Positions 17,912 through 62,895 of a DNA stretch of 64,000 bases are shown one piece after another (positions within the stretch are counted from its first letter, which is position 1; each line of letters opens with the position of its first letter). The stretch lies in assembly GCF_008107625.1 (NCBI RefSeq), contig NZ_SDKK01000009.1:43591-107590 (forward strand), read 5' to 3'. The position numbers and the translations under genes were made by a program. Origin of the DNA: Zoogloea oleivorans (GTDB taxonomy: Bacteria > Pseudomonadota > Gammaproteobacteria > Burkholderiales > Rhodocyclaceae). Below the pieces are notes generated by a model that was not told where the DNA came from, ran no database searches, and saw only the letters and a list, made by a program, of their open reading frames with translations.

Positions 17912-18049
17912 CTTGAGGTTTCTCCCGGACCCGGTGGCGTCCCCGCCGACCTGGGTGGATTGCGTCTGGACGTGCCGGGAGGGGGGAGAGAAGGCCAGGA
18001 AAATCCATGACCGCGCTCGTCGCCACCACCCCGTGGCACTTCCGCTTTG

Positions 18050-18280
18050 TGTGATCAAGGCCGGTATCCGGGCTCACAAGCTGTGCCGGGGCGGCATGAA
18101 TGCCGGACCGGACGCGGTGTATCGCCTTCCCAGACCCAGAGGCCCAGTGGCTGTGTGACACACCTTGCGCTTGCTTACCGTTGCGGGGGCAGCACAGGCA
18201 TTACGACTTCCGAAAGAAGATCGCGCACCTGTTTCCCGTTTAACCCCTGGGCCGGAAGGCCCGTGGAGCACCTGGAACAC
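18050..18280 (-). ncRNA. Cobalamin riboswitch upstream of btuB
   Basis: Read on the - strand, this stretch has all the conserved parts of a B12-sensing leader in order. These are AGGTGCTCC at 18273-18265, GGGTTAAACGGGAAAC, the core GCTGCCCCCGCAACGGTAAG (18193-18174), GCCACTGG (18151-18144), GGGAAGGCG (18131-18123) and the closing B12 box AGCCCGGATACCGGCC (about 18074-18059). It lies about 140 bases upstream of the btuB ATG. Binding of adenosylcobalamin is expected to block translation or cause termination for btuB-btuC-btuD-cobO. Exact ends are approximate. Confidence 0.93.
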
Positions 18281-18288
18281 GTTTGTCT

Positions 18289-18308
18289 GCTGCGGATCTA
18301 TCCGCAGC
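18289..18308. promoter_or_regulatory. Perfect 8-bp inverted repeat between cobU and the riboswitch
   Basis: GCTGCGGA and TCCGCAGC flank a four-base TCTA centre. The dyad sits between the 5' end of the btuB riboswitch and the cobU start, so it could be an operator for the divergent pair or a leader hairpin. No regulator gene is adjacent. Function is not established. Confidence 0.4.
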
Positions 18309-41579: not shown

Positions 41580-42152
41580 ATGTTCGCCTCGTCAGCCATT
41601 GCCGGCCTCAATCACCTTCTTGCCGATGCCCCGTGGGCGCGGGAGCGCCTCGCGCCCTTCGCCGGACGCACCGCGATCTTCGTACTCAAACCCCTGGAGC
41701 TCGGCCTTGGTATCGACAAGGACGGCTACTTCAGCGATGCCGCGACCACGGAACCGGACGTATCCCTTGAGCTGCCCCTGGCCTCCCTGCCCAAAGCCAT
41801 GGGGGGCCCGGATGCGCTGATGAGCGACATCCGCATCAGCGGCAATGCGGACCTCGCCGACGCCCTCGGCTTCGTCCTGCGCAAGTTGCGCTGGGACGGC
41901 GAAGAGGCTTTGTCGCGTGTCATCGGCGACATTGCCGCCCATCGCGCAGTGGGCACGGTCCGGAGTCTTGCCGGCTGGCATCGTCAGACCGCGCAGAATC
42001 TGCTCGAAAACCTGGCTGAGTACTTTGGGGAGGAACAGCCCGTCCTCGTCAAACGTCACGCACTGGAAGACTTCTCCCGCACCACCACCGTCTTGCGCGA
42101 CGACCTTGCCCGCCTGGAAAAACGTTTGCGCAAGCTTGAGTCCCGCAACTAA
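41580..42152 (+). CDS. ubiJ: Ubiquinone biosynthesis accessory factor UbiJ (SCP2 domain)
   Basis: 190 aa protein with an SCP2 lipid-binding domain that holds ubiquinone precursors for the Ubi enzyme complex. The N-terminal LNHLLADAPWARERL helix precedes strand-rich GRTAIFVLKPLELGLGID. A helical C-terminal region follows (RTTTVLRDDLARLEKRLRK). It follows ubiE as in E. coli ubiE-ubiJ-ubiB, but no ubiB follows here: a terminator and the atp operon come next. Confidence 0.85.
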   Translation: MFASSAIAGLNHLLADAPWARERLAPFAGRTAIFVLKPLELGLGIDKDGYFSDAATTEPDVSLELPLASLPKAMGGPDALMSDIRISGNADLADALGFVLRKLRWDGEEALSRVIGDIAAHRAVGTVRSLAGWHRQTAQNLLENLAEYFGEEQPVLVKRHALEDFSRTTTVLRDDLARLEKRLRKLESRN

Positions 42153-42172
42153 ACGGCACCAGGAACCAAACA

Positions 42173-42202
42173 AAAAGGGCAGCCCTTGCGGACTGCCCTT
42201 TT
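42173..42202. terminator. Bidirectional intrinsic terminator between ubiJ and atpC
   Basis: AAAAGGGCAG and CTGCCCTTTT form a 10-bp stem around a 10-base loop. T-runs follow on both strands, so it can end both the ubi transcript and the convergent atp operon. Confidence 0.85.
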
Positions 42203-42225
42203 GCAATACAGCGACTTCGTCTTGA

Positions 42226-42651
42226 TCAGTGACCGCGCTTCTTCAGCTTGCTGATTGCCGCGATCTGGGCCAATGCCGAAGCCAGTTCGGACTGAGCCTT
42301 TGCGTACTCCAGGGCAGAACCCTGATTCTGCAGAGCCTCTTCAGCCACACGCTTGGCTTCCAGAGCCTTCGCCTCATCCAGATCCTTGCCACGGATGGCG
42401 GTATCCGCCAGAACCGTAACCAGACCCGGTTGAACTTCCAGCAGGCCGCCAGCCACAAAAACCAGCTCTTCCTCAGCCTGGTTCTGGACCTTGACGCGCA
42501 CGGCACCCGGCTTGATCCGGGTCATCAGCGGCATGTGGCCGGGCAGAATCCCCAACTCACCAGCTTCGCCGGGCAGGGCCACAAATTCAGCCAGACCGGA
42601 GAAAATCTGCTCTTCCGCGCTAACGATATCGACGTGAATAGTCATTGCCAT
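42226..42651 (-). CDS. atpC: F0F1 ATP synthase subunit epsilon
   Basis: 141 aa central-stalk subunit of F1, which couples rotation and inhibits ATP hydrolysis. It starts [40 protein letters not shown] is the conserved beta-sandwich block, and the C-terminal helical hairpin ends [19 protein letters not shown] at 42651, with GAGG upstream. It is last in the nine-gene operon. Confidence 0.95.
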
Positions 42652-42711
42652 AGCTAGTATCCTCTTCGATCCGGCGGGCTCCTGAGGAACACCACCGGAT
42701 GGTCGCGATGA

Positions 42712-44115
<1,404 letters not shown>

Positions 44116-44985
44116 TTACACCGCGGCTGCGCCACCGACAATTTCGGACAGTTCTTTCGTGATCGCTGCCTGACGAGTCTTGTTATAGACCAGTTGCAGT
44201 TCGCCGATCACGCTGCCGGCGTTGTCAGAAGCGGCCTTCATCGCCACCATCCGGGCACTCTGTTCGGATGCCATGTTCTCGGCGACAGCCTGGTACACCA
44301 GCGCTTCGACATAGCGCACCAGGAGTTCGTCGATCACCACCTGCGCATCCGGCTCGTAGAGGTAGTCCCAGTTCCCTTCGGGGGTTCCGAGACGCTCGCC
44401 GGTCAGCGGGAGAAGCTGCTCAAGCTGGGACTCCTGCTTCATCGTGTTGATGAAGCGGGAGTAAACAAGGTGCACTTCGTCCAGCTCACCATTCTGGAAA
44501 GCATCGATCATGACCTTGACGGGTCCGATCAGCTTTTCCAGATGGGGAGTATCCCCGAGCTGGGTGACATGCGAGACGACCTTGGCACCCAGACGCTGCA
44601 TGAAACCCAGCCCCTTGTTGCCAATGCAGGTCACACGCATGTCGGTGACACCCTTGCTTTCCCAATCCTTGAGCGCGCTCAACCCGGTGCGCAAGGTGTT
44701 GGTGTTGAGGCCGCCGCACAGACCCTTGTCGGTCGTTACGACGATCAGCCCAACACGCTTGACATCGTTCTTCGTAACGAGGAACGGATGCTTGTAGTCG
44801 GTGATGTTGGCTGCAGACAGATTCGCGGCGAGACGGCGGATCTTCTCGGCATAGGGACGGGCAGCCCGCATGCGCTCTTGAGCCTTGCGCATTTTGGAAG
44901 CTGCAACCATTTCCATGGCCTTGGTGATCTTTTTAGTGTTCTGGACACTCTTGATCTTGTTACGGATCTCTTTACCGCTAGCCAT
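44116..44985 (-). CDS. atpG: F0F1 ATP synthase subunit gamma
   Basis: 289 aa rotor shaft subunit. The N-terminal helix ([24 protein letters not shown]) and the C-terminal helix ([25 protein letters not shown]), together forming the coiled coil inside the alpha3beta3 ring, match the family in overlapping blocks. The [10 protein letters not shown] segment is conserved. Fits between atpA and atpD. Confidence 0.96.
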
Positions 44986-45006
44986 TTCGCTCTCCGTATG
45001 CCTGCG

Positions 45007-46545
<1,539 letters not shown>

Positions 46546-46556
46546 AGCTTATGCTC

Positions 46557-47093
46557 CTAGTTCTTTAGCGCGGCGGCCATGTTCGCGAGCTTGCCGCGGA
46601 CCGAGGCATCGATGACTTCATCCCCAACGGCGATCTTGACCCCACCAATCAATTCGGGGTCTACGCTGACGATTACGTTGAGCTTGGCCTTGAAACGGGC
46701 TTCCAAGTCAGCAACGAGCGCTTTCAGCGTGGCATCGTCCATCGGGAACGCGGAGGTAATGTTCGCCTCCTTGACGCCTTCTTGTTCGTTCTTGAGGATA
46801 ACGAACAGGTCACGGATCTCGGGAAGCACTTGCAAACGCTCATTCTCGACCAGGACACGAACATAGTTCTGCTGTTCGGCAGATAGTCCGGTACCGGATA
46901 CATCAAGAAAAAGCCCTGCCAGTTGTTCCGGCAGGAGCTTGGGATCGGTAATGCAATCCCGCATTTGCGGATCGGAGGCCACTGCGGCCAGCCGATCTAG
47001 TACTTCCGACCAAGGCCCCAGCGCATTGCCCGCAGAAGCGAGCTGAAATGCCGCTTCAGCATAGGGGCGTGCGATGGTGACGTTCTCGGCCAT
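46557..47093 (-). CDS. atpH: F0F1 ATP synthase subunit delta
   Basis: 178 aa peripheral-stalk cap joining the alpha subunits to the b dimer. N-terminal six-helix bundle starts [17 protein letters not shown]. The C-terminal part with [25 protein letters not shown] is the conserved OSCP block. It abuts atpF by three bases. Confidence 0.94.
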
Positions 47094-47096
47094 GGC

Positions 47097-47570
47097 TTAT
47101 TGAAGTTCCTGTTTCAGGTTGGCCAGCAGGTCGGCATGCGCCTGAGCGTTGATTTCCTTGCGGAGAATCTTCTCGGCGCCGGCAACAGCGAGTTGGGCGA
47201 CCTGATCACGCAGGGCTTCCTTGGCACGTTGAGCAGCGACGCCAGCTTCGGCTTCAGCGGCTTCACGGGCCTGGGCAATGATACGGGCGGCTTCGGCGCG
47301 AGCTTCATCGACGAAAACTGCAGCCTGCTTTTCAGCAGAGGCACGAACGTCCGTAGCGGACTCACGCGCCTTGCGCAGTTCTTCGACGACTTTCTTCTCG
47401 GCATGAGCGAGATCGCTCTTCGCCTTGTCCGCAGCCGTCAGCCCGTCAGCGATCTTCTTCGCACGCTCATCGAGTGCCTTCACAATGGGGGGCCACACGA
47501 ACTTCATCGTGACCCACGCCAGAATGAAGAACACAACGAGCTGGGCTACCAGGGTTGCGTTCAGATTCAC
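47097..47570 (-). CDS. atpF: F0F1 ATP synthase subunit b
   Basis: 157 aa peripheral-stalk subunit. One N-terminal membrane helix ([23 protein letters not shown] in short) is followed by a long charged, Ala-rich helix ([26 protein letters not shown]...) that dimerises along F1. It fits the order between atpE and atpH. Confidence 0.95.
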
Positions 47571-47605
47571 GGTAATCTTCCTTTAGTCAGGTTGAACCGC
47601 GAAAC

Positions 47606-47875
<270 letters not shown>

Positions 47876-47913
47876 TTAAATTGAAACCGAAACGACTGCT
47901 TAAACTTTGAAAC

Positions 47914-48756
47914 TTAGTGACTTTCGTGCGCCTGACCGATGTACACCAGGGTCAGCATCATAAAGATGAATGCTTGAAGCGCAACGATCAGGATGTGGAA
48001 GACGGCCCAGATGGAACCGGCAACAACGTGACCGAGGAAACCAAACACGGTAGCGGTACCACCCATCAGCGCGATCAGCATGAACACCAGCTCGCCAGCG
48101 TACATGTTGCCGAACAACCGCATGCCGTGGGAAACGGTCTTGGCGAGGAATTCGATCATCTGCATCAGGAAGTTGATCGGGTACAGCAGCGGATGCGAAC
48201 CGAAGGGGGCGGTGAAGAGTTCGTGAACCCAGCCGCCGAAACCCTTGATCTTGATGTTGTAGTAAACACAGATCAACAGCACGCCGATGGACATGCCAAG
48301 AGTGCCGTTCAGGTCGGCCGTGGGCACGACGCGGAGGTAGGCATGTTCGTCACCGGTGATCAGTGCCCAGATCTTCGGCAGCAGATCGACCGGCAGGAAG
48401 TCCATGGAGTTCATCAGGAAGATCCAGAAGAACACCGTCAGGGCAACCGGCGCAACAAACTTGCGGGACTCGGCGCTATGCACGATGCCCTTGGCCTGAT
48501 CGGCCACCATTTCGAAGAGAATTTCGATGGCTGCCTGGAAGCGTCCCGGAACACCTGAAGTCGCTTTATTGGCGGCTGTAATCAGGATGAACAGGGTGAC
48601 GACACCCATGGCAATAGAGAAAAAGATGGTATCCAGGTTCCAGACGCTCCAGTCGATGATCGCGGTTTGGGCGTGACCAGTCGAATTCAGGTGGGTCAAG
48701 TGGTGGACAATGTATTCACCCGCGGTAGGGGCGTGCGCTTCGTGGCCAGTGCTCAT
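47914..48756 (-). CDS. atpB: F0F1 ATP synthase subunit a
   Basis: 280 aa proton-channel subunit. The essential Arg is in [21 protein letters not shown]. The [12 protein letters not shown] loop and the C-terminal helix ending [15 protein letters not shown] are conserved. Start at the ATG at 48756 ([15 protein letters not shown]); upstream in-frame codons would run into atpI. Two bases separate it from atpI. Confidence 0.95.
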
Positions 48757-48758
48757 GG

Positions 48759-49100
48759 TTAGTTCTTCACCAAAAATGCAAATAAATTCGCCTTCAGCGC
48801 CACAACAAACCCGATAAACAGCGCCAACCAATGGACGTCTGCATACACGAGCTGAACGGTCGCCAACAATCCTACGGTTGACGCGATCTTTACGAACTCG
48901 CCAACGAAAAACTCAAGCGGATACGACGCATCGGGACGCTTGGCAACTGCGCTCAGACGCAGGGCGAACAACAAATTGGGAAGAACACAGGCTGCGCCTC
49001 CCAACGCCGCCGACAGCGCACCTGGCAACCCCATTACTAATCCGGCAATCAATGATGCCAGTATTGTCGCGCCTATCTGCAGGTATACCGCTTTTAACAT
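48759..49100 (-). CDS. atpI: ATP synthase subunit I (AtpI)
   Basis: 113 aa small membrane protein of the AtpI family, which assists c-ring assembly. Four hydrophobic segments are visible (starting [34 protein letters not shown] and so on). It starts at the ATG at 49100 with AGAGAACC before it, and leads the atp operon. A promoter-like element lies 58 to 86 bases upstream. Confidence 0.85.
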
Positions 49101-49157
49101 TGGTTCTCTGCGTGGCACGTCGGGTGTTGCGCCATCCGCCGTACGAAAAACGTGCGG

Positions 49158-49186
49158 ATGGTAAGGGTTAACCGTAGCCAAGTCAA
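49158..49186 (-). promoter_or_regulatory. Predicted promoter of the atp operon
   Basis: On the - strand TTGACT (49186-49181) and TACCAT (49163-49158) are separated by 17 bases, ahead of atpI. The -35 fits sigma-70 well, the -10 less so. Confidence 0.45.
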
Positions 49187-49267
49187 TGCTTGCTGCACTG
49201 CGGCAATCAGATGGCCGCCGGCTGCCGCTAATCGAATGCAGCACAAGGAGTTGACATGCCTGACAAA

Positions 49268-49289
49268 CATATCGATCATTATCGATATG
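49268..49289. promoter_or_regulatory. Perfect 9-bp dyad covering the start codon of the ArsR-family gene
   Basis: CATATCGAT and ATCGATATG flank a CATT centre. The right arm includes the ATG of the regulator, the usual position for an autoregulatory ArsR/SmtB operator. The site lies about 80 bases upstream of the divergent atp promoter and need not affect it. Confidence 0.65.
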
Positions 49290-49598
49290 AATAAAGACTA
49301 CTCCCGGGCCATTCCGGAAACCTGGTGTGACATCGCAGCAGTCTTTGCGGCTCTCGGCGACGAGCACCGACAACGCATCCTGCTCACCTTCGAACCTGGC
49401 GAACGGCTTAACGTCGGTCAGATTGCGGAGGTGTCCACTCTCGCCCGGTCAACCGTATCCCATCATTTGAAGGTACTTCGGGAGGCTGGGGTGCTGCAGG
49501 CTGAGCGTGAGGGGAAGGAAATTTATTTCCACGTGAACAAAGCATTTCTGCAGGAGGCCTTTGGCAAGGTCGCCGTGTATCTCGATACCTGTCTCTAG
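49287..49598 (+). CDS. ArsR/SmtB-family transcriptional regulator
   Basis: 103 aa winged-helix repressor. The DNA-binding helix is LARSTVSHHLKVLREAGVL with the wing AEREGKEIYFHVN. The family's metal-binding ELCVCDL motif is missing (NVGQIAEVSTLARS stands there), but Cys14 and Cys102 could form a redox pair as in sulfide or persulfide sensors of this family (inference). ATG at 49287. It lies 31 bases before the acyltransferase/AMP-ligase gene and diverges from the atp operon, so it probably controls the downstream envelope genes. Confidence 0.85.
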   Translation: MNKDYSRAIPETWCDIAAVFAALGDEHRQRILLTFEPGERLNVGQIAEVSTLARSTVSHHLKVLREAGVLQAEREGKEIYFHVNKAFLQEAFGKVAVYLDTCL

Positions 49599-49629
49599 AC
49601 TCCAGGCTCCGACCCGCTCTCCCTCAATC

Positions 49630-51768
49630 ATGCGAAACCTCATCAAAGCCCTGCTGCGCAGCATCGCCTCCATCCTGTTCCGCGTTCGCATCAACGGATC
49701 GCTACCGGAGGAAAAATCCCGGCTGCTGATCGTCGCCAACCACGAATCCTTTCTCGACGGCCTGCTGCTCGGCCTCTTTCTGCCCCTCGATCCGGTCTTC
49801 GTCGTGCATACCGGCGTAGTGCGCAACCCGGCCTTCCGGCTTCTCCTCGCGCTGGTGGATTACCTCGCTGTCGATCCGACGAGTCCGATGGCGATGAAGA
49901 AAGTGATCCGCCTTATCGAGGGCGGACGCCCGGTGGTGATCTTCCCGGAAGGCCGCATCACCACCACCGGCAGCCTGATGAAGACCTACGACGGCCCGGC
50001 CTTCGTCGCCGCCAAGACCGGCGCGACCATCCTGCCGGTGCGCATCGACGGTGCCGCCCGCACCTATTTCTCGCGGCTGGCCGCCCACGTGCCACGCAAG
50101 CTCTTCCCGCGCATCAGCCTGTCGATCCTGCCCACCACCCGCATCCCGATGCCGGATGCCGCCACCGCCCGCCTGCGCCGTCGCAAGGCGGGTGAAGCGA
50201 TGCGCCGCCTGATGCAGGAAATGATTTTCGCAACCCGCCCCGAGCAGACCCTCTTCGGCGCCCTGCTCGACGCAGCCGACATCCACGGGGTCAATCGGCG
50301 CCAGATCGAGGATCTCAAGCAGATCGAATACAGCTACCGCGACCTCATCAAGATGGCCCTCGCCCTTGGGCGCCTGGTGGCGAAAGAAAGCCAGCCCGGC
50401 GAACGGGTCGGCCTGCTGCTGCCCAACCTGGCGCCGACCCTCGGCCTGATCTTCGGCCTGGCGGCCCATCGGCGCACCGCCGCGATGCTCAACTACACTG
50501 CCGGCGTCGATGGCATGCAGGCCGCCTGTACCGCCGCCCAGGTGCACACAATCATCACCTCGCGCGCTTTTGTCGAGCAGGCCAAGCTCGGCGACAAACT
50601 CGCGGCCCTGCAGGGCGTGCATCTGCGCTACCTCGAAGACCTGCGCGACACCATGAGTTTTGGCGACAAACTGTGGCTGATGCTGTGGGCGCTGCCCTTC
50701 CCGCGCACTGCGCTGCCAGCGGGATCGCCCGAAGACGCGGCGGTGGTGATGTTCACCTCCGGTTCCGAAGGCAAGCCGAAGGGCGTCGTGCTGTCGCACC
50801 GGGCACTGCTCGCCAACATCGCCCAGATCCGTGCGGTGGTCGATTTTTCTACCGATGACAAGATCCTCAACGCCCTGCCGCTGTTCCACTCCTTTGGCCT
50901 CACCGCCGGCGGGCTGCTGCCGGTGCTCACCGGTGCCAAGGTCTTTCTTTACCCCTCGCCGCTGCATTACCGGGTCATCCCCGAACTCGCCTACGACCGC
51001 AACTGCACGGTGTTGCTCGGCACCAGCACCTTTCTCAGCAACTACGCCAAGTTCGCCCATCCTTACGACTTCTACCGCCTTCGCTACGTGATCGCCGGCG
51101 CCGAGAAGCTCGCCACACCCGTGCGCGACCTGTGGTTCGAGAAGTTCGGCATCCGCATCTTCGAAGGCTACGGTGCCACCGAAACCGCCCCCGTACTCGC
51201 CGTCAATACCCCGATGGCCTTTCGCAGCGGCACCGTCGGCCAGTTTTTGCCGGGCCTGCAGCACCAGCTGGTGCCGGTCCCCGGCATTCCAAAGGGCGGC
51301 ATGCTCCACGTGAAGGGCCCCAACCTGATGTCCGGCTACCTGCGCTTCGAGCAGCCCGGCGTACTGCAACCACCCGCCTCGCCCGCCGGCGAGGGTTGGT
51401 ACGAAACCGGCGACGTGGTCGAGATCGACGAAGACGGCTTCGTGAAGATCGTCGGCCGGGTCAAGCGCTTCGCCAAGGTGGCCGGCGAAATGGTGTCCCT
51501 CGAAGCCGTCGAAAAGCTGGCTGCCGTCGCCTCGCCCGGCGCTGCCCATGCCGCCTCGACGCAGCCGGATCCGGCCCGCGGCGAAACCATCCTGCTGTTC
51601 ACCACCGACCGCCAACTGGCCCGCGAACAGCTCCAGAGCGCTGCCCGCGACAGCGGCTGGCCGGAAATCGCCGTGCCTCGCCGGATCATCCCGGTAGAAG
51701 CCCTGCCACTGCTCGGTACCGGCAAGATCGACTACGTCACCCTCAAGCAATGGGCCGAAAAAGCCTGA
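49630..51768 (+). CDS. aas: Aas-type bifunctional lysophospholipid acyltransferase / acyl-ACP (acyl-CoA) synthetase
   Basis: 712 aa protein of two enzymes. The N-terminal PlsC domain has the NHESFLDG (HX4D) motif at about 37-44 and the VIFPEGRITTTG motif near 105; it re-acylates lysophospholipid. The C-terminal AMP-ligase has VVMFTSGSEGKPKGVVLSH, the GYGATETAPVLA motif and GWYETGDVVEIDEDGFVKIVGR, and activates a fatty acid on ACP or CoA. Start at the ATG at 49630. In E. coli Aas works with the flippase LplT, found here (fused to another PlsC) at 54403, so the cluster probably serves lysophospholipid recycling. Confidence 0.88.
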   Translation: MRNLIKALLRSIASILFRVRINGSLPEEKSRLLIVANHESFLDGLLLGLFLPLDPVFVVHTGVVRNPAFRLLLALVDYLAVDPTSPMAMKKVIRLIEGGRPVVIFPEGRITTTGSLMKTYDGPAFVAAKTGATILPVRIDGAARTYFSRLAAHVPRKLFPRISLSILPTTRIPMPDAATARLRRRKAGEAMRRLMQEMIFATRPEQTLFGALLDAADIHGVNRRQIEDLKQIEYSYRDLIKMALALGRLVAKESQPGERVGLLLPNLAPTLGLIFGLAAHRRTAAMLNYTAGVDGMQAACTAAQVHTIITSRAFVEQAKLGDKLAALQGVHLRYLEDLRDTMSFGDKLWLMLWALPFPRTALPAGSPEDAAVVMFTSGSEGKPKGVVLSHRALLANIAQIRAVVDFSTDDKILNALPLFHSFGLTAGGLLPVLTGAKVFLYPSPLHYRVIPELAYDRNCTVLLGTSTFLSNYAKFAHPYDFYRLRYVIAGAEKLATPVRDLWFEKFGIRIFEGYGATETAPVLAVNTPMAFRSGTVGQFLPGLQHQLVPVPGIPKGGMLHVKGPNLMSGYLRFEQPGVLQPPASPAGEGWYETGDVVEIDEDGFVKIVGRVKRFAKVAGEMVSLEAVEKLAAVASPGAAHAASTQPDPARGETILLFTTDRQLAREQLQSAARDSGWPEIAVPRRIIPVEALPLLGTGKIDYVTLKQWAEKA

Positions 51769-54406: not shown

Positions 54407-56283
54407 GTTCCCAGTTCCATCTCCTCCGCGAGCAACGTTTCCGGCCCTTCTTCCTGACCCAGTTCCTCGGCGCCTTCAACGACAACCTGTTCAAGAACGC
54501 GCTGGTCGTGCTGCTCACCTTCCAGGCGGCCAGCTGGACGACGATCAAGCCGGAGCTCCTCGCCAACCTGGCTGCGGGCATTTTCATCCTGCCCTTCTTC
54601 CTGTTCTCGGCAACCGCCGGCCAGCTCGCCGACAAATACGACAAGGCCTATTTGACGCGACTTGTGAAGGTGCTCGAAATCGCCATCATGGTCGTCGCCC
54701 TCGCCGGCTTCCTGCTGCACAACCTGGCGACGCTGTTCGGCGCCCTGTTCCTGCTCGGCTGCCACTCGACCCTCTTCGGCCCGGTGAAATACGCCCTGCT
54801 GCCCCAGCACCTGCACGAGGAAGAACTCGTCGGAGGCAACGCGCTGGTGGAAGCCGGCACCTTCGTCGCCATCCTCATCGGCACCCTGGTCGGCGGGCTG
54901 CTCGCCGCTGCCGAATATGGCGATCTATGGATCGCCGGCGGCGGCATCCTGGTCGCCATCACCGGCTATTTCACCAGCCGCGGCGTACCGCCGGCCCCCG
55001 CGCCCGAACCCGGCCTGAAGGTCAATCCGAATCCATTCACCGAAACCTGGCGCAACATCGGCTTCGCCCGCGAAAACCGGCCGGTTTTCCTGGCAATCAT
55101 GGGCATCTCGTGGTTCTGGCTGTACGGTGCACTGTTCCTGGCCCAGTTTCCGGCCTACGCCAAGGGCGTCCTGGGGGGCGGCGAAGGCACCGTAACGCTG
55201 CTGCTGGCCACCTTCACGGTGGGCATCGGGCTCGGTTCCCTGCTGTGCGAAAAACTCTCCGGCGGCCACGTGGAAATCGGCCTGGTGCCCTTCGGCTCCA
55301 TCGGCCTGACCCTTTTCGGGCTCGACCTGGCCTTCGCTTCGCCGGCCGTGCTGCCCGCCGGTGCGCCGCTGGCCATCGGCGCTGTGCTGGCCCAGCCGGG
55401 CATGCTCCGGGTGCTGCTGGCCCTGCTGATGCTCGGCGTTTTCGGCGGATTCTTCATCGTGCCGCTCTACGCGATGATGCAAAGCCGTTCCGCCGCCGGC
55501 CACCGGGCCCGGGTGATCGCCGCCAACAACATCCTCAACGCGCTGTTCATGGTTACCGGCGCGCTGGCTGCCGGCGCCCTGCTCGGCGCCGGCCTGAGCA
55601 TCCCGATACTGTTCGGCGTGGCAGCCCTGATGAACGCGGCGGTGGCGCTGTACATTTTCCGGCTGGTGCCGGAATTTCTGCTGCGTTTCATCGTCTGGCT
55701 ACTTATCCACAGCGTGTACCGCCTGCGCACCGAGGGCCTCGAGCACATCCCGGAAAACGGCCCGGCAGTCATCGTGTGCAACCATGTGAGCTTCGTCGAT
55801 GCGCTGGTGATCGCCGCCGCATGCCGGCGCCCGATCCGCTTCGTGATGGATCACCGCATCTTCCGCTGGCCGGTGCTGTCCTTCGTGTTCCGCCATAGCC
55901 AGGCGATTCCCATCGCTCCGGCCAAGGAAGACCCGGCGATGATGGATGCGGCCTTTGCCGAAGTGTCGGCGGCGCTGGCCGCCGGCGAGCTGATCGGGCT
56001 GTTCCCGGAAGGAAAGATCACTGCCGATGGGGAGCTGTGCCCCTTCCGCCCGGGCATCGCCCGCATCCTCGACGCCAATCCGGTGCCGGTCGTGCCGCTG
56101 GCCCTGCGCGGACTGTGGGGCAGCATGTTTTCGCGCAAGGACGGTCCGGCACTCAGCCGGCCCTTGCGGCGCGGCCTGTTCAACAAGATCGAGCTGGTCG
56201 CCGGCGCACCACTTGCGCCGGAAACGGTAAGCATCCCCGGCCTTCAGGTGCAGGTGGCAGAACTGCGTGGCGACTGGAAATAG
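54403..56283 (+). CDS. Fused LplT-type lysophospholipid transporter / PlsC acyltransferase
   Basis: 626 aa protein. The first about 400 residues are a major-facilitator transporter of the LplT type, with FLTQFLGAFNDNLFKNALVVL and LLGCHSTLFGPVKYALLP as diagnostic blocks. The last about 180 residues form a PlsC acyltransferase with NHVSFVDALV (HX4D) and GLFPEGKITADG. LplT flips lysophospholipid into the inner leaflet and PlsC re-acylates it. The fusion supports direct hand-over. ATG at 54403 overlaps the upstream gene. Together with Aas at 49630 the locus holds two PlsC domains. Confidence 0.88.
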   Translation: MSSQFHLLREQRFRPFFLTQFLGAFNDNLFKNALVVLLTFQAASWTTIKPELLANLAAGIFILPFFLFSATAGQLADKYDKAYLTRLVKVLEIAIMVVALAGFLLHNLATLFGALFLLGCHSTLFGPVKYALLPQHLHEEELVGGNALVEAGTFVAILIGTLVGGLLAAAEYGDLWIAGGGILVAITGYFTSRGVPPAPAPEPGLKVNPNPFTETWRNIGFARENRPVFLAIMGISWFWLYGALFLAQFPAYAKGVLGGGEGTVTLLLATFTVGIGLGSLLCEKLSGGHVEIGLVPFGSIGLTLFGLDLAFASPAVLPAGAPLAIGAVLAQPGMLRVLLALLMLGVFGGFFIVPLYAMMQSRSAAGHRARVIAANNILNALFMVTGALAAGALLGAGLSIPILFGVAALMNAAVALYIFRLVPEFLLRFIVWLLIHSVYRLRTEGLEHIPENGPAVIVCNHVSFVDALVIAAACRRPIRFVMDHRIFRWPVLSFVFRHSQAIPIAPAKEDPAMMDAAFAEVSAALAAGELIGLFPEGKITADGELCPFRPGIARILDANPVPVVPLALRGLWGSMFSRKDGPALSRPLRRGLFNKIELVAGAPLAPETVSIPGLQVQVAELRGDWK

Positions 56284-60031: not shown

Positions 60032-61198
60032 TTATTCTAGCGCAACTTTACAGAATTGCACTAACTGGCTGGCCAGATCGTCCACCTCCTGCAGCTTTGC
60101 CGACCACCGCTTGGCATGGCTAAACAGGGCGGGCAGTGCTGCCAAAAAGGCTGGCCAAGCTTCGCCGATGCCTTCCCCGCGGTTCCACGCCAGCCAGAAA
60201 TCCGTCAGAGCCCGCGCCACTTCCGGGTCGAGTCCGGCTCGGTAGCAAGCAAGGAAAGCCTCCAGTTTTTCCAGATGGGCGCCCTCCTGCTGGGCGTAGA
60301 TGTGCCAAACGAAGGGTTTTTCGGCCCACTGGGCGCGCACGAAAGAATCTTCCCCGCGCACGAAATTGAGATCGCAGGACCACAGCAGCTCGTCGTAGCA
60401 GGCTTGTTCGACGAAGGGCAGTATCCGCACAGTCAGGCTGTCGCGGATCAGACGGTCACCGGCACGCAGACCACTGACTCCGAATTCCGCTGCCACCCCA
60501 GGCAGTATCCGCCCCTCCGGAACCAGGCAGGTAACCCGCGAAACACTGCGCGACCAGGCATCGAAGAGCTCCGGCAAACCGGCGTTTTCATAGGAAAACA
60601 GGGAAACCCGCAATTCTTCGGGCTCGGGCGGGGCTAAATCGAGGGCATCCCAGAAGGCTTGCGGCGAAAAAACGGCCCGGCGCGCCGCGTAATCGGCCTC
60701 GCGGATCAAACCCCCCGTGTTCGCTTCCAGGCCTGGAAAGAAAAAATGCTGGGTCAGCGGCAGGCGCGGATGCGGTGAGGGCATGCGATGGCAGCCACTC
60801 ACCCACTCTTCAGCACTCAGGTATTCGAGATTTACCCACACCGGTCTCGGCGTGCGCCGGGCCATGGCCTCCAGGAAAGATTCCGGCAAAGAGCAGGCAA
60901 AAGCCGCAATCACGACTTCGCCAGGATCAACCGACGACAGTGGATCGCCCCACTGGCGGATCTCGACACCATCAATGAACTGCCTGGAGGCTGCCGGATC
61001 AAGAGCCGGAATCAGGCGACGCGTGCTTTTCAGGTCATCCACCCACAAGCGGACGGCAATCCCGTGCTCGGCCGCCAGTTGCCGCGCCAGCCGCCAGCAC
61101 ACACCGATGTCGCCAAAATTATCCACAACAACGCAGAAAAGGTGCCAACGGGATGGCGCCGGAACGGAAGGGTCTGGAGTCTGCGAAAGAACTGACAA
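60032..61198 (-). CDS. earP: EF-P arginine 32 rhamnosyltransferase EarP
   Basis: 388 aa GT-B type glycosyltransferase of the DUF2331 family, which attaches rhamnose from dTDP-rhamnose to Arg32 of EF-P. The N-terminal block WHLFCVVVDNFGDIGVCWRLARQLA, the RLWVDDLKS segment, and NLEYLSAEEWV and the late FVRGEDSFVRAQWAEKPFVWHIYAQ blocks are distinctive, here seen in part. Start unclear: no ATG or GTG precedes the conserved part; TTG at 61198 is the closest start-type codon. It is followed by efp, the usual pair. Confidence 0.9.
   Translation of the reverse strand: MSVLSQTPDPSVPAPSRWHLFCVVVDNFGDIGVCWRLARQLAAEHGIAVRLWVDDLKSTRRLIPALDPAASRQFIDGVEIRQWGDPLSSVDPGEVVIAAFACSLPESFLEAMARRTPRPVWVNLEYLSAEEWVSGCHRMPSPHPRLPLTQHFFFPGLEANTGGLIREADYAARRAVFSPQAFWDALDLAPPEPEELRVSLFSYENAGLPELFDAWSRSVSRVTCLVPEGRILPGVAAEFGVSGLRAGDRLIRDSLTVRILPFVEQACYDELLWSCDLNFVRGEDSFVRAQWAEKPFVWHIYAQQEGAHLEKLEAFLACYRAGLDPEVARALTDFWLAWNRGEGIGEAWPAFLAALPALFSHAKRWSAKLQEVDDLASQLVQFCKVALE
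61119..61127 (+). promoter_or_regulatory. Perfect DnaA box within earP
   Basis: TTATCCACA, the high-affinity DnaA-binding consensus, sits in the earP N-terminal coding region about 240 bases from the next box at 61360. Confidence 0.6.
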
Positions 61199-61229
61199 AG
61201 CTGGGGATAAACCGGGAAAAGAAGGCGAA

Positions 61230-61430
61230 TGGATTGTGCACAAAGCCCTTCGATGAAGCGAGGTCAAAATTGCTCAACAATCCCTCCACACACCGTACAG
61301 GGTCTTGCAGACAGCTTTATAAACCGGATAACTTTTTGAAAAAAATGGACTTTAAGTACTTATCCACAGAAAACATCCGAGCGTAAACGTTAACAGTATT
61401 TATATATAAACAAAAAACAGTAAACAAATC
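61230..61430. repeat. Imperfect direct repeat, copy A (period 431)
   Basis: Contains in order ATTGTGCACAAA (61233), CAAAATTGCTCaaCAATC (61265), TTATCCACAGAAAA (61360), GTTAACA (61389) and TATATAAACAAAAA (61404). Copy B has the same elements at +431, with 428 for GTTAACA. Confidence 0.75.
61360..61368 (+). promoter_or_regulatory. Perfect DnaA box, copy A
   Basis: TTATCCACA followed by GAAAA, 33 bases before the first AT tract. Confidence 0.7.
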
Positions 61431-61660
61431 CCTTACCCACTAAAACCACGCCCTCCTCAAGAACTTCCTCTGTTTTGGACAACAGAGGTCTATCTGCTTG
61501 ATCCGAAAATCGTCCAGGCACTGAACAACATTCCTTGGGGTCCTGAAGACAAATTTGCAGGGTTCGTGATCAGGTTGTGCAGATCGCAGACACTCACAAA
61601 CTGTCTCCAAAACTTGGTTTGGCGTTCTGCCTGTGCACAACTTGACGGTTAACTTCCGCA

Positions 61661-61860
61661 GAAATTGTGGACAAACCAGGTAAACCGCGCAGGCGCAAAA
61701 TTGCTCCCCAATCTGTCCCAGTCTTGATCCCCCCTCTGTCCAGAGCTTTTTCCCACTTCCATCTCAATGAAAAAAAAGGGGTTTACCGGGTTATCCACAG
61801 AAAAGGCCTGTACACAGTTAACATAGTCTTATATATATAAACAAAAACATAAGAACAAAC
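61661..61860. repeat. Imperfect direct repeat, copy B (period 431)
   Basis: Contains ATTGTGGACAAA (61664), CAAAATTGCTCccCAATC (61696), TTATCCACAGAAAA (61791), GTTAACA (61817) and TATATAAACAAAAA (61835). Sequence between these elements has diverged, so the elements seem to be under selection. Confidence 0.75.
61791..61799 (+). promoter_or_regulatory. Perfect DnaA box, copy B
   Basis: TTATCCACA followed by GAAAA, about 32 bases before the second AT tract. Confidence 0.7.
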
Positions 61861-61989
61861 CTCCTCAAGACTTTTCCCCAAAACCTGTCTTCAGCAGGAA
61901 GGGCAAAGTCATACGGGTTCATCCCTAGACCAGACTTCACGGACCTCCCCCATAATCCCGATCCGTCCTGTCTGCAGGCATGCCACTTC

Positions 61990-62895
61990 ATGTCCGACCG
62001 TCGATTTCCCCGGCTTCTGACTCACCCCTATTTGTTGCTGACGCTGACTGTCCTGTTTTGGTCAGGCAACATGGTGGTGGGACGTGGACTGCGTGAAGCG
62101 GTACCACCCATGAGTCTGGCTTTCGGTCGCTGGATCCTGGCCCTGCTGCTGACCCTGCCCTTCGCCTGGCCCCACCGGCACACCCTGCGCGGGCTGAATG
62201 CCGGCCAATGGGGCATCCTGCTGGTCCTCGGTGTGCTGGGCGTCGGGGCTTACAACACGCTGGCTTACCTGGCCCTGGCCCACACCACCGCAACCAATGC
62301 GGCCCTGCTGAATTCCTTCATTCCGATCGCGATCATCGCCATCTCGTGGTTCCTCGGGCACCGGGCCACGCGGGTGGAGTCGGTCGGGGTGGCGCTGTCC
62401 TTCATCGGCGTGATGACCATCGTCAGCCGTGGCGATCCGGCCGTGCTGGCCGGTTTGAGCCTGAATGTGGGCGATTTGTGGATGCTGGCGGCGGTACTGT
62501 CATGGGCGCTGTACACCCTTGGCCTCAAGTGGCGTCCGGCGGGTGTGCACCCGATGGCCCTGCTGGCGACCTTGACGGTGATTGGTCTGGCGGTGCTGGC
62601 GCCTCTCACCTGGCTGGAACTGGCTGGTGGCGTACAGCTGCATCTGAGTCCGGCAGCACTGGCCGGAGTGGCCTACACCGGGATCTTTCCGGCCTTTCTC
62701 GGTTATGTTTTCTACAACCGGGCAGTGGCCGAAGTCGGTGCCTCGAAGGCCGGGCTGTTCATCCACCTGATGCCGGCTTTCAGCACGATCCTGGCTACGC
62801 TGTTCCTTGGCGAGGTACCGCGGCTCTACCATTTTTCGGGAATTGCGCTGATTCTTGCCGGTATCTGGCTGACGACGGGTTTCAAGAACCGCTAA
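61990..62895 (+). CDS. EamA/DMT family transporter
   Basis: 301 aa inner-membrane protein with ten hydrophobic helices in two EamA repeats. N-terminal repeat motif LFWSGNMVVGRGLREAVPP and second-half LSWALYTLGLKWRPAG; GIFPAFLGYVFYNRAVAEVGASKAGLF is typical of RhaT/YedA-like metabolite exporters in short blocks. The substrate is unknown. It is the first gene to the right of the non-coding region. Confidence 0.88.
   Translation: MSDRRFPRLLTHPYLLLTLTVLFWSGNMVVGRGLREAVPPMSLAFGRWILALLLTLPFAWPHRHTLRGLNAGQWGILLVLGVLGVGAYNTLAYLALAHTTATNAALLNSFIPIAIIAISWFLGHRATRVESVGVALSFIGVMTIVSRGDPAVLAGLSLNVGDLWMLAAVLSWALYTLGLKWRPAGVHPMALLATLTVIGLAVLAPLTWLELAGGVQLHLSPAALAGVAYTGIFPAFLGYVFYNRAVAEVGASKAGLFIHLMPAFSTILATLFLGEVPRLYHFSGIALILAGIWLTTGFKNR

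Follow-up and report, generated by a model that had tools for sequence, protein, structure and literature searches.

Does a gene-free region far from dnaA serve as the replication origin of a Zoogloea chromosome? The question is raised by positions 61199–61989 of the window, the 64,000-nucleotide stretch analysed here (G000:C40:43591–107590, plus strand). The window belongs to contig C40 (232 kb) of a draft genome of 5.68 Mb in 107 contigs. The region is bordered on the left by earP, encoding the EF-P arginine rhamnosyltransferase (60032..61267, minus strand; PF10093, E 1.1e-150; longest open frame, start uncertain), which is followed by efp on the same strand, and on the right by the gene of an EamA-family transporter (61990..62895, plus strand; PF00892, E 4.4e-49). 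The two neighbours point apart, in agreement with the diverging gene order on which the original prediction of an origin was partly based. The left edge at 61199 hinges on the earP start codon and is fair but unproven, because the longest earP open frame extends to 61267.

The DnaA-box content of these 791 bases was compared with 2000 dinucleotide shuffles of the same sequence. The region contains 2 exact boxes, 4 boxes with at most one mismatch and 10 with at most two, against shuffle means of 0.0045, 0.17 and 2.5; the observed counts were reached by 0, 0 and 1 of the shuffles, respectively. This above-chance cluster is as expected of a bacterial DnaA-dependent oriC. Both exact boxes (TTATCCACA), identified by sequence match and module alignment, are on the plus strand, box A at 61360..61368 and box B at 61791..61799. 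On the minus strand, box A is preceded at 158 bases by a one-mismatch box (TTATCCCCA, 61202..61210) and at 125 bases by a two-mismatch box (TTGTGCACA, 61235..61243) in a conserved alignment position. Box B is preceded at ~158 bases by a two-mismatch box (TTGTGCACA, 61632..61640, from the module alignment) and at 125 bases by a one-mismatch box (TTGTCCACA, 61666..61674). The two perfect boxes and near-matches that had been predicted are thus present and stand far above the shuffles. A further exact box on the plus strand (61119..61127) lies 241 bases before box A, at Val-Asp-Asn codons in the 5′ coding part of earP. Within 20 kb around the region we found 6 of the 19 exact boxes of the genome, compared with 0.07 expected. 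Three more exact boxes, at window positions 55703, 56737 and 57914, lie outside the region but at most 6 kb away.

Direct repeats at a constant offset of 431 bases run across the region and identify it as a diverged tandem duplication with two head-to-tail modules, a feature absent from the original prediction. As cut for alignment, module A spans 61185..61444 (plus strand; −175 to +85 around box A) and module B spans 61616..61875 (plus strand). When 37 modules from 24 loci were aligned, with earP-internal boxes excluded and one module with TTTTCCACA included, a common plan emerged: minus-strand near-boxes lie ~158 and ~125 bases ahead of a plus-strand TTATCCACA, and after that box come a short spacer and an AT-rich tail. 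In the window these tails correspond to two tracts of 25% GC on the plus strand, tract A (61386..61445) and tract B (61816..61875), starting 17 bases past box A and 16 bases past box B. The predicted AT tracts proved to be the two joint lowest-GC 60-mers of the whole 232-kb contig, directly after the boxes. Their position is that of a candidate unwinding site next to boxes, as looked for in a bacterial DnaA-dependent oriC.

Other sequence signals were also analysed. The octamer GGGNAGGG, which we take to be FtsK-type, occurred in small counts per stretch and was left unused for origin placement. GATC clustering, a feature of E. coli oriC, is not shared by the Zoogloea region, which has 5 GATC in 791 bases against 5.05 expected from the window. 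A basal unwinding system is described in PMC8287927 as a box, a spacer of up to 16 bases and DnaA-trios. With the trio strand relative to the box assumed, 8 of the 37 modules have three or more trios no further than 16 bases from it, compared with 7.3 in base shuffles; neither window module was among the 8, and the same count on the other strand gave 1 of 37.

The non-coding DNA of the region matched 21 of 22 same-genus genomes and none of 17 genomes outside the genus. With modules defined by a filter of our choice (a box with at most one mismatch plus A or T at 29 of 42 tail positions), 20 of the 22 matched Zoogloea genomes, our own included, carry two box-plus-tail modules with boxes 354–592 bases apart. 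Both boxes are exact in 14 of these genomes; one mismatch occurs in box A in 5 and in box B in 1. G008 and G017 have a single module, and the 23rd genome, G001, had no match. In a FastTree phylogeny of the modules, the Zoogloea A copies group together (0.91), as do the Zoogloea B copies (0.997), and the A and B copies of Aromatoleum are sisters (0.986). This topology hints at two independent duplications, one in Zoogloea and one in Aromatoleum, and is only suggestive because it is based on ~260 columns and gene conversion is possible.

Upstream regions of earP were then compared across 80 loci, scanning up to 1.5 kb from the start of the tblastn match, with the start codon unproven. At least one exact box was present in 10/10 Zoogloea loci (including L048 and L049) and in 14/14 loci of an Azoarcus/Parazoarcus/Thauera/Aromatoleum group. 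The latter includes two MAGs, L067 and L073, and L073, with little upstream DNA, has the earP-internal exact box alone. Among the other loci an exact box was found in 1 of 56 (L095, a nitrosomonad, with a different geometry). All 14 Azoarcus-group loci have the earP-internal box at the Val-Asp-Asn codons. Besides the window, one of 10 Zoogloea loci has it, and none of the 56 remaining loci does. In the Azoarcus/Parazoarcus/Thauera/Aromatoleum group it precedes the main box by 223–224 bases in 11 of the 13 loci with both boxes and by 233 bases in the other two. Loci of Azoarcus, Thauera and Aromatoleum also repeat the box spacing of the region. A search with the Azoarcus-type motif matched 11 of 150 family genomes (among them G155, identical by its coordinates to G040, Azoarcus sp. 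L1K30), and the reversed-pattern control matched 0. None of the 4 Zoogloea among the 150 family genomes was matched by this motif, because the tail has diverged there.

On C40, dnaA is located at 144.7–146.2 kb, about 40 kb from the region, with a dnaN-like frame on one side and an rnpA-like frame, recognised by eye, on the other. The original prediction had noted that the usual origin neighbours were missing; this holds beside the region itself, but dnaA–dnaN and the rnpA-like frame are found on the same contig ~40 kb away. Region and dnaA occur on the same contig in eight Zoogloea genomes (G000, G004, G006, G012, G016, G019, G020, G021), where they are 36–93 kb apart and the orientation of dnaA relative to the region varies between species. 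Both loci share a contig, 12–112 kb apart, in 9 of the 11 family genomes with the Azoarcus-type motif. Seen from the region, dnaA is on the side of earP in L1K30 and on the opposite side in the eight Zoogloea genomes. Sites resembling parS (at most one mismatch) occur 5–17 kb from dnaA in 6/6 genomes, and none occurs at the region. On C40 two such sites, at 153073 and 153866, lie near dnaA and outside the window.

Boxes also occur at dnaA. One exact box is found upstream of dnaA in 13/15 Zoogloea loci and in the Thauera and Azoarcus loci examined. Exactly one is present in 18 of 19 loci, irrespective of the earP motif; these 19 are 27 loci minus G047 and seven with at most 307 bases upstream, the rest having the full 960 bases. 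In these 19 loci, counting exact boxes ahead of dnaA does not distinguish the genomes that have the earP motif from the others. Among the genomes listed for boxes around the DnaA domain, a set that covers G089 in part and leaves out G178, this domain is closely flanked by exact boxes on either side in at least four motif-less single-contig genomes (G047, G060, G065, G094), as would be expected if their origin lay by dnaA. In G085, among the genomes listed, exact boxes 224 bases apart lie about 29 kb from dnaA; this is the spacing of the earP type, to which G085 may be assigned.

A skew minimum elsewhere had been named beforehand as one observation that would speak against an origin here. We calculated the cumulative G+T−A−C curve in three Zoogloea and one Azoarcus, and in 4/4 its minimum falls at most about 160 bases from the homologous region, with dnaA 38–105 kb away on the same contigs. 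In G006:C9 the minimum is at 915,713 (within 800–1,020 kb), the region match at 914,969–915,552 and dnaA at ~953 kb. The corresponding values are 103,958 (over the contig), 103,017–103,814 and ~197 kb in G020:C71, and 269,207 (over the contig), 269,362–269,988 and ~205 kb in G012:C23. In Azoarcus sp. L1K30, the minimum at 3,377,909 (within 3.2–3.6 Mb) is next to the main box at 3,378,033, with dnaA at ~3,483 kb. GC skew or T−A skew alone gives minima 0.2 to about 12 kb off the region: 927,503 and 904,180, respectively, in G006:C9, 104,309 and 95,452 in G020:C71, 267,650 and 280,519 in G012:C23, and 3,378,239 and 3,380,549 in L1K30. As the single-skew minima are scattered, the sharpness is confined to the combined curve. 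Coarser sampling gave a compatible picture. In spaced 20-kb samples of G006:C9 the lowest running GC sum is in the 900–920 kb sample. The 20-kb samples of L1K30 have negative G+T−A−C between 1.0 and 3.38 Mb, apart from a value close to zero at 3.30 Mb; between 3.38 and 4.77 Mb, and again between 0 and 0.77 Mb, they are positive, the sign changing at the homologous region.

The strand-composition switch looked for at a DnaA-dependent oriC is thus found at the site in all four relatives, while the window's own contig is mixed. Taken over the whole of C40, T−A skew reaches its minimum within the region, at 105,545 (window 61,955). The G+T−A−C minimum over C40 1–180,000 is at 105,618 (window 62,028). 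The GC minimum over C40 1–180,000 is at the right end, and over the full contig both the GC and the G+T−A−C minima are near 207,000. The cumulative-skew check proposed with the original prediction favoured the region in the relatives by their combined minima and gave a mixed picture on C40, where the whole-contig minima near 207 kb oppose it. We did not follow ~207 kb as an origin because the relatives agree on earP, and it stands as contrary evidence. The draft contig contains 1,053 Ns, and its right half is possibly rearranged, inverted or misjoined. Over ~148,000–207,000 of C40, outside the window, the GC skew falls again, contrary to a simple origin at 105 kb.

These observations indicate that region 61199–61989 is very probably the chromosomal oriC of this Zoogloea, ~40 kb from dnaA. 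The assignment draws on the anatomy, conservation and duplication of the region, its distance from dnaA and its coincidence with the strand-composition switch in four relatives. Weighing against it are the C40 minima near 207 kb and at the right end, the offset of the single-skew minima in relatives, the parS-like sites by dnaA, box counts ahead of dnaA that are the same with or without the earP motif, a trio count near that of shuffles and the unenriched GATC. The original prediction had left a displaced origin and a second DnaA-binding region side by side; with combined minima at the region and dnaA 38–105 kb away in 4/4 relatives, the displaced origin is the better supported of the two. An origin at dnaA was rejected on the same minima at earP. 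In a related but improbable scenario, the origin would lie beside dnaA as usual, and the region would be a DnaA-titrating or reactivating locus like datA or DARS of E. coli. Such loci do have box clusters, and the raised box density for several kb around the region, the exact box upstream of dnaA (13/15 Zoogloea loci) and the parS-like sites near dnaA fit this scenario. A locus of this kind would nevertheless be expected off the skew switch, and in 4/4 relatives the combined switch coincides with the region and not with dnaA; the two AT-rich tracts adjoining perfect boxes also fit unwinding sites.

Two origins, a main one at the region and a weaker one near dnaA or vice versa, could account for the repeated sign changes of the C40 skew on the right-hand side of the region and for the exact box upstream of dnaA. 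In L1K30, however, the skew is single-signed from the earP region past dnaA, on contiguous sequence to 3.6 Mb, and therefore carries no trace of a second switch at dnaA, which makes this arrangement very unlikely. We give least weight to an ordinary promoter region in which boxes regulate earP or the transporter gene via DnaA, a reading we consider extremely improbable. The location between two diverging genes would suit it, but the size, the tandem duplication and the skew coincidence argue against it, as does the presence of an exact box at most 1.5 kb upstream in just 1/56 earP loci outside the group.

For the displaced oriC, we infer DnaA binding, unwinding and the use of the modules (A, B or both) from established oriC biology. 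DnaA would bind the box array of conserved spacing that ends at the perfect TTATCCACA, extend from this box into the following AT-rich tail and open it. Helicase would then be loaded, and two forks would depart, passing through earP and the transporter gene, respectively. The dnaA gene, ~40 kb from this proposed origin, sits together with dnaN and the parS-like sites. With two head-to-tail modules, the Zoogloea origin would offer two candidate opening sites. Tentatively, and with the odds somewhat against it, the two complete tandem modules (20/23 Zoogloea, separately evolved in Aromatoleum) may form a twin origin whose opening sites both function or act as backups for one another.

In the E. 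coli oriC, whose neighbours are mnmG and mioC, an array of boxes leads up to an AT-rich unwinding tract. This oriC is separate from dnaA (PMC8287927), and DnaA-box density is raised near it (PMC12371093). The Zoogloea region is similar in its box array followed by an AT-rich tract, its distant dnaA and the enrichment of boxes nearby. It differs from the E. coli origin in its neighbours, earP and the EamA gene, in its unenriched GATC and in its doubled module. In the bipartite origins of Bacillus subtilis and Helicobacter pylori, clusters flank dnaA and there is one unwinding site. The Zoogloea region shares with them more than one box cluster per origin, but it is distant from dnaA and consists of two entire modules in tandem, each of which includes an AT-rich tract.

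Azoarcus sp. EbN1 is akin to Aromatoleum, whose loci carry the module, and by this kinship an earP-side origin is a candidate explanation for a skew anomaly reported for EbN1. Its skew origin lies 5.1–6.0% of the chromosome from a complete origin-gene cluster, a displacement resembling that described here, and the excerpted text names no site (PMC2099444). No oriC at earP and no Zoogloea oriC was found in the literature among the matches listed; DoriC may hold such predictions. An oriC away from dnaA is known already from E. coli, and what seems new is a probable displaced origin that a whole clade has next to earP, together with its twin-module form.

The best reading of the comparative data is an oriC 12–112 kb from dnaA in this group of Zoogloea and relatives, with the twin layout in Zoogloea. 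A single named locus next to earP would then hold the origin of Zoogloea and, by conservation, those of Azoarcus, Parazoarcus, Thauera and Aromatoleum. Contig 1 starts with dnaA in 4 of the 11 motif genomes, 12–112 kb from the earP locus, and the zero point of those genomes would therefore be off the origin. Relatives with single and double modules provide a natural system for the role of a second unwinding site and, where parS-like sites stay with dnaA, for the coupling of initiation and segregation. Elsewhere in the window, a cobalamin riboswitch (RF00174, 91.6 bits) is located at 18042–18290 on the minus strand, and the GC content over 42000–50000 is 0.56–0.59, below that of the surroundings.
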